Positions 1,299 through 29,594 of a DNA stretch of 54,853 nt are shown in pieces. The translations under genes and the position numbers were made by a program. The notes beneath the pieces were generated by a model. It worked only from the letters and a program-made list of their open reading frames with translations. It made no database searches and was not told the DNA's origin. The stretch lies in NCBI GenBank assembly GCA_944390765.1, contig CALXQM010000022.1:1-54853 (forward strand), given 5' to 3'. The DNA is from an uncultured Alphaproteobacteria bacterium. GTDB taxonomy: Bacteria > Pseudomonadota > Alphaproteobacteria > UBA3830. Position 1 is the first letter of the stretch; each line of letters begins with the position of its first letter.

Positions 1299-3155
1299 TC
1301 AATATCTTTCGAAAAATTTATTTAAAATTTTATAATTTATCGTTATATATGAAGGTCTTCCATGACAACATTGTGCAATATTTGGAGTTTTTTCCATCTG
1401 CCTTAATAAAGAATCCATTTCTTCAATTGATAATTTTTTACCTGCTCTTAAACTACCGTGACATGATATAGTTGATAGCATTAATTGAATTTTTTCTTGT
1501 AAAGTTTGAACATTACCAAAAGTTTCTAATTCATCCAAAATATCATTTATGAGAGGTTTTACATCACAGTGTCCTAAAATAGATGGCAAAGCTTGAATCA
1601 TAATCATATCTGAAGTAAGTATCTCATATATTATTCCGAATTTGTTAATTAATTCTTTGTTTTTCTCTAGTAATTCTAATTGAGATTGTTTTATTGGATA
1701 CATTTCTGGTAATAAAAGATTCTGAGATTCTAATTTAGAGAATGATTGAAGTTTTTCTAAAGTAATTCTTTCTGCAGCAGCATGCTGGTCAACAATTATT
1801 AGATTATCATTATTTGCAGCTACAATATAAGTATTAGCAATTTGATATAAAGGATTTCCTAAATCAATTTCATTAGAAGTATCTTGTTCAAATACAGTCT
1901 GTTCAGTATTTTTTTGTATTGATAATTTGCTCAAATTATAAGCTGTATATGGATTGTTTTCATCTGTCTTTTTAGGTTCAGATAAATGGTAATTTTCTAT
2001 TTTATGTGGTTGATATATAGAAGCGCCAAAGTCTTTAGTATTGATTTTTTCGATTTTAGAAAAATTTGATATAGAAATATTAGATGGAACATAAGAAGCA
2101 CTATTTTTATCTGAAAAGTTCTGGGAAATATTGTCATAAAAATTATGTATAGTTTCTGTGGTTGATTTTTTAGAGCCAAAAGAAGAAATTGCCTTTTTTA
2201 ACTCCGTAATTAAAAAACTCCTTACCTTATCACTATTTCTAAATCTTATTTCTATTTTGCTTGGATGAGCATTAACATCAACATCAGAATAGGGTAGGGA
2301 AAAAAACAATATAGCAACAGGAAATCTTCCATGAGGAACTAAACCTGAATAAGCTACTTTTAGAGCTGATGTAAAAATTTTATCTTTCACAAATCTATTA
2401 TTTACAAAAAAATATTGATATAACGACGATGATTTATTAAATGTTGGTACTCCTATAACTCCGCTTAATGAAAAATTATCCTGCTTGATATCAACAGGGA
2501 AAACATTTTCGAAAAATGTAGTTCCAAATATATTACAAATACGTTGATTTAAATTATTTTCAACAGGATAAGAAATAATTTTTTTATTATCCTCTTGAAA
2601 AGTAAAGGATATTTTATTAAACGCTAAAGCAATTCTATTAAAAGTTTGAAGACATGCATCACTTTCAGTAGCATCTGATTTTAAAAATTTCAAACGGGCA
2701 GGTGTTGCGAAAAATAAATCTTGTACTTCAACAGTAGTACCTTTTATTCTTGTTGATGGAAGTATGCTACATTGTTCTTTTCCATTTGATTGTAAACACC
2801 ATGCTTCATTTGTATTTGAATTTGAAGATGTGATTGATACTCGTGCTATTGATACTATTGATGGTAGAGCTTCTCCTCTAAAACCGAAAGTATGAATATC
2901 AAATAAATTTTCATTTGATAATTTAGATGTTGCATGGCTAAGTATACATAGTTGTAACGAATCTTTATCCATACCAATACCATTATCACTAATAGAAATA
3001 AAACTTTTACCAGCATTAATGATTTTAACGTTTATTTCAGTTGCTCTGGCATCTATTGCATTTTCCATTAATTCTTTTATTACTGATGATGGTCTTTCAA
3101 TTACCTCACCTGCTGCTATTTGATTTATTAAATTTTGAGATAATATTTTGATCAT
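1299..3155 (-). CDS. mutL: DNA mismatch repair protein MutL
   Basis: MutL links MutS mismatch recognition to strand removal. The N-terminal GHKL ATPase shows IAAGEVIERP (13-22), ELMENAIDA (28-36), SDNGIGM (56-62) and GFRGEALPS (91-99). A variable linker follows, then the dimerisation and endonuclease domain with DQHAAAERITLE near residues 456-467. This fits the DQHA(X)2E(X)4E nuclease motif of MutL proteins from bacteria lacking MutH. CHGSLRAG and CCHGRPSYI near the C-terminus complete the metal site. The frame opens at 3170, but the ATG at 3155 has a GGAG about 7 bases upstream and matches family starts. The protein is 618 residues, a normal length. Confidence 0.97.
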   Translation of the reverse strand: MIKILSQNLINQIAAGEVIERPSSVIKELMENAIDARATEINVKIINAGKSFISISDNGIGMDKDSLQLCILSHATSKLSNENLFDIHTFGFRGEALPSIVSIARVSITSSNSNTNEAWCLQSNGKEQCSILPSTRIKGTTVEVQDLFFATPARLKFLKSDATESDACLQTFNRIALAFNKISFTFQEDNKKIISYPVENNLNQRICNIFGTTFFENVFPVDIKQDNFSLSGVIGVPTFNKSSSLYQYFFVNNRFVKDKIFTSALKVAYSGLVPHGRFPVAILFFSLPYSDVDVNAHPSKIEIRFRNSDKVRSFLITELKKAISSFGSKKSTTETIHNFYDNISQNFSDKNSASYVPSNISISNFSKIEKINTKDFGASIYQPHKIENYHLSEPKKTDENNPYTAYNLSKLSIQKNTEQTVFEQDTSNEIDLGNPLYQIANTYIVAANNDNLIIVDQHAAAERITLEKLQSFSKLESQNLLLPEMYPIKQSQLELLEKNKELINKFGIIYEILTSDMIMIQALPSILGHCDVKPLINDILDELETFGNVQTLQEKIQLMLSTISCHGSLRAGKKLSIEEMDSLLRQMEKTPNIAQCCHGRPSYITINYKILNKFFERY

Positions 3156-25871: not shown

Positions 25872-26048
25872 ATGACAGAGCTTTTAGATCAAAAAGAATT
25901 AGGTGAATTTTTAGGAGTGTCTAAATTTATTATATGGCAGTTACAAAAAAAAGAAGATTTCCCAAAACCTGTTAAAATTATGTCTAAAAAAAAGTGGAAG
26001 AAAAGCGAAATCGAAGAGTACCTCGAAAAGACTAGAGAGAAAGCATGA
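25872..26048 (+). CDS. AlpA-like HTH protein, second copy
   Basis: The product MTELLDQKELGEFLGVSKF is an HTH_17-type DNA-binding domain, with the conserved tail WKKSEIEEYLEKTREKA. An in-frame TTG at 25860 is an alternative start; neither has a strong ribosome site. Its stop overlaps the ATG of the RhuM gene (ATGA), so the two are coupled. The last 36 bases are repeated at 28151-28190 with one mismatch, which marks it as a recombination point in the island. Confidence 0.75.
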   Translation: MTELLDQKELGEFLGVSKFIIWQLQKKEDFPKPVKIMSKKKWKKSEIEEYLEKTREKA

Positions 26049-26052
26049 AAGA
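26013..26052 (+). repeat. Direct repeat, left copy (HTH 3' end and ATGA junction)
   Basis: Forty bases match 28151-28190 with one mismatch. The unit spans the last codons of the HTH gene and the ATGA overlap with the next start codon. The first 17 bases of this unit are also close to 25225-25241 in the first HTH gene. Confidence 0.9.
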
Positions 26053-28150: not shown

Positions 28151-28190
28151 GAAGAGTACCTCGAAAAGACTAGAGAGAAAGAATGAAAGA
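28139..28190 (+). repeat. Direct repeat, right copy, mosaic of two parents
   Basis: Bases 28139-28155 match the 3' end of the RhuM gene (27035-27051) exactly over 17 bases. Bases 28151-28190 match the HTH repeat at 26013-26052 with one mismatch. In the third frame it still encodes KKSDIEEYLEKTREKE and an ATGA junction that opens a nine-codon remnant, MKEQEQRLKT-stop. Confidence 0.9.
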
Positions 28191-28257
28191 ACAAGAACAA
28201 AGATTAAAAACATAGGATATAAGTATAATATCACTTTATGAACTTGTGAATAATCTT

Positions 28258-28286
28258 TTGACTTTAAAATTTATTTTAGATAATAT
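28258..28286 (+). promoter_or_regulatory. Strong sigma-70 type promoter of the capsid leader
   Basis: TTGACT (28258-28263), 17 bases, TAATAT (28281-28286). This is near consensus with ideal spacing. Transcription would start near 28293, about 38 bases before the Cas12a-type repeat and about 280 bases before the capsid ATG. Confidence 0.75.
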
Positions 28287-28330
28287 GATTTTGTAGGGAG
28301 TGATAAGACACCTTATTGAAAGCATAATTG

Positions 28331-28349
28331 AATTTCTACTGTTGTAGAT
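28331..28349 (+). CRISPR. Solitary type V-A (Cas12a) CRISPR repeat
   Basis: The 19 bases AATTTCTACTGTTGTAGAT equal the processed direct repeat known for Francisella Cas12a crRNA. The stem TCTAC (28335-28339) pairs with GTAGA (28344-28348) around TGTT, and the AATTT 5' handle forms the pseudoknot side. No second copy exists within the window on either strand, so this is not an array. A Cas12a enzyme would be expected to cut just before the handle and hold the RNA with the following phage sequence (TTTGGTGTTGATGAG...) as guide. A strong promoter lies immediately upstream. See findings. Confidence 0.85.
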
Positions 28350-28572
28350 TTTGGTGTTGATGAGTCTTTATTGGAAGAACTACCTTTCAGGTCTGTTAGT
28401 AAATAAGCCTTATTATTTCCTCGCTCGTACGATTTAGTAGGATAAGGTCGTAGCTAAATGAGCCTTAAGGCTATGGATAATCTCGCAAGAGACCCAGATT
28501 AGTTTAGTCAAAATCCCCTTATAAAAAGTTCGATAAAATTTGATTTTTTGTTGAATTATAGAAGGGATAATT
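28350..28572 (+). ncRNA. Structured capsid-mRNA leader downstream of the Cas12a-type repeat
   Basis: The stretch between the repeat and the capsid ATG has no open frame but several stems: CCTTA/TAAGG (28408-28412 with 28443-28447) enclosing TCCT/AGGA (28418-28421 with 28439-28442), the palindrome AGCCTTAAGGCT (28461-28472), and TCTC-GCAA-GAGA, a GNRA tetraloop hairpin (28481-28492). I recognise no known RNA family. A GAAGGGATAA ribosome site ends it. Confidence 0.45.
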
Positions 28573-29594
28573 ATGGCTTTTGAATTAACTAATTCGTTTT
28601 TAGAAGAATTTGACTATATGTTCCATCCGTTTTTGGAACAACAAGGTTCTCAGTTATTGCAAGCAGTGACACAAGAACCGGTACAAGGCTCAGTGAAATA
28701 TATTAGGCAACAACAAGTTGGCGATGCACATTTTGTGACTGATACAGGCGGTATAACTGAATATACAAGTATTCAGTATGATAGGAGAAGGCTTAAGCCT
28801 AGACCATTTGCTTGTCCAATCACATTGAATGATTTCGATATGGTTATGCAAGGTACGCCAGATCCAGCTATGTTAGCACAACAAGCGGCGAACTCCTGTG
28901 GAAAACTAATCGACCAAATTATTATTCAGGGAATTGGCGGGACTAGTTATACTGAAGCTAGCGGGAAAAAACACTTCCAGGAGCAGATAAAGTGTCATCT
29001 GGGGCATCAGCTGCTGCAGTTGTTGCAAATTATGATAAAACTCAGACTATTGCTTGGAACGATTGTACATTAGGTGGCAATACAGATGATAATACAGCAT
29101 ATATCAAAGCGGGATTAAGCACGTCCAAACTAGTTAAAGCCTATCAAAAACTGCAGAGCAAGTATAATAATGGTCCAGTTATTTGTGTATGTTCAAGCTA
29201 TGCAGCTGCAACTGCAAGAGCAGATTATAGAGCCGCTAGCTCTGAGTTTAATGATATTCATGCACTAATGGCGGGGGTTAACAATCCATATGCTGGTATA
29301 GCAGCTTTTGTTATATCAGAGCAAGTTGATGGTGGAAAAAGCAAGGTTGGTGAGAATGGACAATACAATGCAAGTGGAATAAATGTCGAATATGCATATG
29401 TATTTTCAATGAATCAAATTAAACTCGGCGTATCTATGCCATTAACCTTAAAAAATGGGTTAAACGCAGAAAGATATTTGCAAAATGTCCTTATATATGA
29501 AGGCATGTATGATTGTACACGTATGTTTGAAGAATCCGTAGTTAGAATAGAGATTAACAAAAATCCAACATCAAGTGCAACTTGGGCAGCGTAG
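28573..29594 (+). CDS. Major capsid protein, interrupted by a -1 frameshift at an A6 run
   Basis: The two halves are in frames 1 and 0 and join at GGGAAAAAAC (28963-28972). A -1 shift on the A6 run gives one continuous 340-residue protein through SGKKTLPGADKVSSGASAAA. The N-terminal half (MAFELTNSFLEEFDYMFHPF, QYDRRRLKPRPFACPITLNDFD) and C-terminal half (CSSYAAATARADYRAASSEFND) read as a capsid protein of podovirus type. It heads the rightward virion block and is followed by tail tubular genes. Without the shift the product stops at 166 residues. The cause may be programmed frameshifting, polymerase slippage, decay or a homopolymer sequencing error. Confidence 0.8.

Follow-up and report, generated by a model that had tools for sequence, protein, structure and literature searches.

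A single exact copy of the 19-nt mature crRNA handle of type V-A (Cas12a) CRISPR systems, AATTTCTACTGTTGTAGAT, lies in the capsid leader of a prophage, and with moderate confidence it is read here as a solitary-repeat RNA anti-CRISPR, a Racr-like decoy. This was one branch of an earlier note on the same DNA, and it is the best remaining reading of a solitary handle behind a promoter. In its support, the handle is exact and noncoding, a cognate Cas12a is found in the genus, a target is absent, and handles of this type are enriched in intergenic regions of viruses; in addition, the handle is missing from a paralogue of the leader and from related phages. Against it, the lysogen is without Cas12a, the handle has not been kept in three related phages that share the leader, and the match of 19-20 of 36 nt fails the published SRUFinder rule.

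The handle in its leader RNA

The stretch of DNA analysed, here called the window, comprises 54,853 nt of contig C22, from a genome of 1.03 Mb that is 97% complete. Host genes make up the left side of the window and are followed by a prophage whose genes encode capsid, portal (Head-tail_con), terminase, tail fibre and endolysin. The features of the leader region are as follows.

28258..28286, + strand: sigma70-like promoter TTGACT-17-TAATAT of the leader RNA (from the sequence; paralogue block 92% identical)
28293..28525, + strand: structured capsid-leader RNA, ends approximate (paralogue 5′ of dnaK; homologous core in L008, L009 and L049)
28296..28307, + strand: 5′ arm of the leader's 5′ hairpin, GGGAGTGATAAG (MFE fold; pairs with 28409-28420)
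28322..28387, + strand: 66-nt segment in the loop of the 5′ hairpin, containing the handle (unmatched between BLAST blocks)
28331..28349, + strand: exact type V-A (Cas12a) mature crRNA handle AATTTCTACTGTTGTAGAT (identical to the array handles of G008 and G027)
28350..28373, + strand: would-be guide TTTGGTGTTGATGAGTCTTTATTG, directly 3′ of the handle (no protospacer found)
28409..28420, + strand: 3′ arm of the leader's 5′ hairpin, CTTATTATTTCC (MFE fold)
28475..28495, + strand: conserved core hairpin of the leader RNA, GGAYAAYCU-loop-AGRCCC (one match per phage piece)
28573..29594, + strand: major capsid gene (Phage_capsid_2), 3′ of the leader; a frameshift splits it into two ORFs

The handle is flanked by a RhuM/SocA gene cassette and by the Phage_capsid_2 capsid gene. 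A 40-bp direct repeat (98%), at 26013-26052 and 28151-28190, brackets the cassette just 5′ of the leader promoter, which suggests that the cassette was inserted. The break of the capsid ORF at 28573-29594 may reflect prophage decay, an assembly error or a programmed frameshift; since the capsid gene is frameshifted, the prophage is possibly decaying, a point against the decoy reading. Neither phages nor, in a search by single sequence, IMG/VR yielded a relative of this capsid.

The earlier note had described an exact type V-A repeat. The 19-mer on the + strand is indeed exact, but it is the mature handle and not a full 36-nt repeat. The 17 nt 5′ of the handle agree with the repeats of congeners at 5-6 of 17 positions, and the match to a congener repeat is limited to 19-20 of 36 nt. 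A full-length repeat was considered and rejected, as the 5′ half is unlike that of G008 and 16% of random sites score equally well. The handle is present as one exact copy in the window and in the whole 1.03 Mb genome, and a search of the window confirmed the absence of a second repeat. Cas12a processes its own pre-crRNA, and the handle of FnCas12a is the same as AATTTCTACTGTTGTAGAT.

Under Markov models of the composition of the window, 4e-6 chance copies of the exact 19-mer are expected per window, 2e-5 when the four ACT-N-TTG loop variants are allowed and 1e-4 if three loop bases may vary. When 398 genomes of the phylum were scanned, allowing at most one mismatch, the matches were to this genome and one other, which has a real 29-copy array; this is a loose control, many of the genomes probably being richer in G+C. 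No ORF of at least 60 aa covers 28331-28349, i.e., the handle is intergenic. In the folded 233-nt leader the stem TCTAC/GTAGA has a pair probability of 0.81-0.88, the mean with shuffled flanks being 0.50, so the hairpin noted previously is supported by the predicted fold in its leader context.

A promoter-like site is found 45 nt 5′ of the handle, within 250 nt. The promoter claimed for this position, TTGACT-17-TAATAT, is in place at 28258-28286 and is retained in a paralogous copy of the leader; its match to the consensus (9/12), however, is not above shuffle expectation, with 4 sites found and 2.5 expected. The description of the setting as a capsid leader was right as to position 5′ of the capsid gene and needs a correction as to kind: the leader is a conserved structured RNA, into which the 66-nt segment with the handle is set.

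The paralogue, with its own promoter, is located in the same genome at G000:C21:80071-80290 (L023 10072-10290), 5′ of dnaK. It stands alone, with no capsid gene beside it. BLAST aligns it with the window in two blocks, 28256-28321 (92% identical; C21:80071-80136) and 28388-28519 (89%). The unmatched sequence between the blocks is exactly 28322-28387, 66 nt in the window versus 6 nt (AGCTCG) in C21. The stem of the 5′ hairpin (28296-28307/28409-28420) has a pair probability of 0.41-0.55 in the window versus mostly 0.80-0.89 in the C21 paralogue, whose version of the stem has one mismatch.

Related phages with a homologous capsid leader are present in G023 and G027, both of the same host family, and in the IMG/VR contig L049. 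The leader core, GGAYAAYCU-hairpin-AGRCCC, occurs once per related-phage piece examined, each time 5′ of the capsid gene. Copies of the leader RNA lie at 28293-28525 of the window, L023 10108-10275, L008 about 1600-1800 (- strand), L009 1180-1440 and L049 2130-2320. The capsid leaders of the three related phages are without the handle; the alignment check proposed in the earlier note thus went against a hairpin kept in related phages. Because these three leader RNAs do without it, the handle was probably inserted, and on the simplest history it entered the 5′-hairpin loop in the lineage of this phage.

An Rfam search with the leader gave no match to any RNA family, and the exact core has zero matches in IMG/VR and GTDB contigs. 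The capsid-leader RNA with the GGAYAAYCU..AGRCCC hairpin, perhaps a three-way junction, is a candidate new phage RNA family. Other identities were rejected: 6S RNA was suggested by the size of the paralogue, but RF00013 has no match in the genus and cmscan finds no family; a hammerhead or other ribozyme found no match in the Rfam search; and the 66-nt insert as a coding remnant (ISTVVDFGVDESLLEELPFRSVSK) gave a best E of 3 in a tblastn search against phages.

Cas12a in relatives and the proposed decoy

For cas12a (PF18516), its absence from the window was confirmed and extended: it has zero matches in the whole 97% complete genome of the lysogen. The outcome for relatives differs from that for the host, as the PF18516 search finds cas12a in two of eight congeners (G007 and G008) and in G027 of the same family; the earlier note's first ground for refutation, a lack of type V-A systems in host and relatives alike, therefore does not apply. 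G008 encodes an intact Cas12a of 1233 aa beside arrays that carry the exact handle, in the form GGCTAACGCCTCATAAG-AATTTCTACTGTTGTAGAT; its array repeat is GGCTAACGCCTCATAAGAATTTCTACTGTTGTAGAT, and the closest solved structure to its Cas12a is that of ReChb (8qwd). G027, which also has one of the related phages, encodes a Cas12a of 1234 aa and has repeats with GGCTAATGCCTTATAAG followed by the same handle. No real match to the window was found among the listed spacers of G008 and G027, the best being 12 nt.

As a decoy, the element would act as follows. The prophage would transcribe the capsid-leader RNA from its host-type promoter, and the loop of the leader would display the exact handle bound by the Cas12a of sister species. 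Once the phage is in a relative that has Cas12a, this enzyme would bind the leader RNA, which would be abundant, and may cut it just 5′ of 28331. The cut leader would be retained as a crRNA with a useless guide and compete with the host crRNAs, resulting in inhibition. The timing may be poor for a decoy, because the leader heads the mRNA of the capsid, a late gene.

Handles in other viral contigs and rival readings

The comparison set consists of IMG/VR contigs with AATTTCTACTNTTGTAGAT, in all 103 stretches, and 66 distinct loci among the matches listed. Nearly all of these loci are single-copy, with a second repeat-like hairpin within 250 nt in about six. According to a simple ORF-based gene model, the handle is intergenic in 48 of the 66 loci (53 of 66 counting only ORFs of at least 80 aa), i.e., 73-80% versus 9% expected with about 91% of the sequence coding (binomial p <1e-34). 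Scaled from the 13-18 coding loci, about 1-2 intergenic loci are attributable to chance. Of 51 loci, 40 have the handle and the following gene on one strand (p = 6e-5).

Two anatomies are seen: in one, a terminator follows a small unit; in the other, the handle is inside the 5′ leader of a gene. The viral contigs L142:2659, L153:5703, L155:1624, L163:442 and L169:3545 (on the handle strand) display a stem loop ending in TGGATTRAAAC a few nt 5′ of the V-A handle and a terminator-like hairpin after it. The TGGATTRAAAC stem-loop motif has six occurrences in 480 kb, five of them in these contigs, and resembles type I-C repeats; the combined units may be double decoys, each acting on two types of CRISPR. 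The leader anatomy is represented by about 29 loci without a terminator, where the handle is within 110 nt 5′ of a same-strand gene. Handles in a comparable position thus recur among phages of unrelated context. The genes that follow are mixed: portal (twice), small terminase, tape measure, ERF annealing protein, tail and unknown.

When 52 intergenic cases were compared with a panel of seven V-A repeats, 3 had kept the 5′ half of at least one of these and 49 had not, 3/52 being a lower bound. Handle-only units being usual in viruses, the missing 5′ half in the window is a weak argument against function.

These data bear on the reading that the 19-mer arose by chance, or is a functionless remnant of a V-A array that ended up in the leader. 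It was selected in a large scan, where a rare coincidence is bound to turn up at some point, and the lack of the 5′ half, the host without Cas12a and the relatives without the handle all agree with such an origin. Against it are the rarity of the 19-mer, its correct strand and noncoding place, the identical handle with a cognate Cas12a in the genus, and the intergenic excess of V-A handles in viruses. As viral V-A handles are mostly intergenic, many of them in the 5′ leaders of phage genes, a chance or scrap origin is considered unlikely for the handle in the window.

A further reading is that of a Cas12a-responsive cis element, in which binding or cutting alters leader or capsid expression, as a sensor or by mRNA processing. 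It is still viable because the handle sits in a leader, a placement that recurs in the IMG/VR loci described above. In L106:890, L119:8340 and L120:912 the V-A handle is 11-13 nt 5′ of a phage start codon, beside the ribosome-binding site, and Cas12a bound there could, judging from this position, block translation. The handle in the window, however, is 224 nt from the capsid start, and the related phages do without it. The known genes downstream of leader handles are also unrelated, so there is no common regulated function. A cis element is thus rather doubtful for the window. In more general terms, it is put forward tentatively that phages may repeatedly build handle-only Cas12a landing sites into the 5′ leaders of structural genes, the mRNAs serving as sponges or being regulated by Cas12a. 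If this is true, phage structural mRNAs can carry anti-Cas12a decoys.

The earlier note had also proposed that the unit aims Cas12a at the sequence following the handle. As a single-unit crRNA, the prophage would supply a host Cas12a with 28350-28373 as its guide, directed at a rival phage or plasmid in the manner of viral mini-arrays, and a stretch of guide length does follow the handle. The searches argue against a guide with a target: no protospacer for the 24 nt after the handle was found in IMG/VR (exact 20-mer), among 72,556 plasmids or among 50,697 phage records, and 61 relatives, searched with as many as 3 mismatches allowed, gave nothing convincing. A second repeat is also absent. The best seed-plus-PAM site in G008, in G008:C87, pairs at 15 of 25 positions, lies at an ORF start and is at chance level. 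A match in G051:C127 to 28351-28389 (82% of 39 nt) is inside a pilus-like gene, has no TTTV PAM and is taken as chance. A single-unit crRNA is therefore improbable, and a dud guide fits best because there is no target in anything searched.

A CreR/CreA-like regulator, whose RNA guides Cas12a by a short seed to repress a promoter, is very hard to credit here: CreR is known with type V-A systems (PMC12737573) and a clear case is found in congener G007, but no site flanked by NTTV in the window reaches a seed run of 7, and the lysogen's own genome has no TTTV-plus-10-nt site. The G007 case is an observation in its own right. Contig G007:C117 (L091) has a lone V-A handle at 2774-2792 (+ strand), 5′ of cas12a, and a target site at 2684 (- strand). 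The guide CGGTGTGTT matches 9/9 at a site that is flanked by TTTA and lies 47 nt 5′ of the start of cas12a, as compared with 0 of 400 shuffled guides. In sequence terms this lone handle looks like a type V-A CreR autorepressor.

Comparison with known systems

CreR RNAs are regulators of cas operons (reviewed in PMC12737573). The window element resembles them as a solitary repeat-like RNA of the type read by Cas12a; it differs in that no seed-plus-PAM site is found in a promoter here, as one is in G007, and that its genome has no cas12a. Viral mini-CRISPR arrays serve inter-virus conflict (reviewed in PMC11656645). The likeness to these is a phage-borne V-A repeat followed by a stretch of guide length, whereas the window has a single repeat and no protospacer was found for its one would-be spacer, mini-arrays having at least one spacer, as a rule flanked by two repeats, with a protospacer in a related virus.

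The closest likeness of the decoy is to the Racrs, a kind already known. The solitary phage repeats RacrVA1-3 inhibit the type V-A system of Moraxella bovoculi in the laboratory (Camara-Wilpert et al. 2023, PMC10651486); the same authors allow other roles for some predicted Racrs. As in type V-A Racrs, the window has a solitary repeat mimic on a mobile element, intergenic, with a promoter 5′ of it and no cas genes, and the CRISPR subtype matches that of related hosts (G007, G008 and G027). It also differs from them. Whereas a Racr has a separate small RNA, the handle here is part of a conserved capsid-leader RNA, in whose loop it lies; the lysogen that carries it has no Cas12a, and it is a candidate decoy read from sequence; and the match is to the 19-nt handle and not to the full repeat, while the SRUFinder rule calls for coverage of at least 90% of a known repeat, at least 90% identity and a bit score of at least 41.1 (PMC10651486). 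The anatomy, a handle alone within a loop of a structured capsid leader, looks new, although published lists may already contain leader-embedded cases. If leader-embedded V-A decoys form a true class, a search by the published rule, which asks for full repeats, would miss most of them, and the RNA anti-CRISPR catalogue, compiled on the same demand, would omit its handle-only members.
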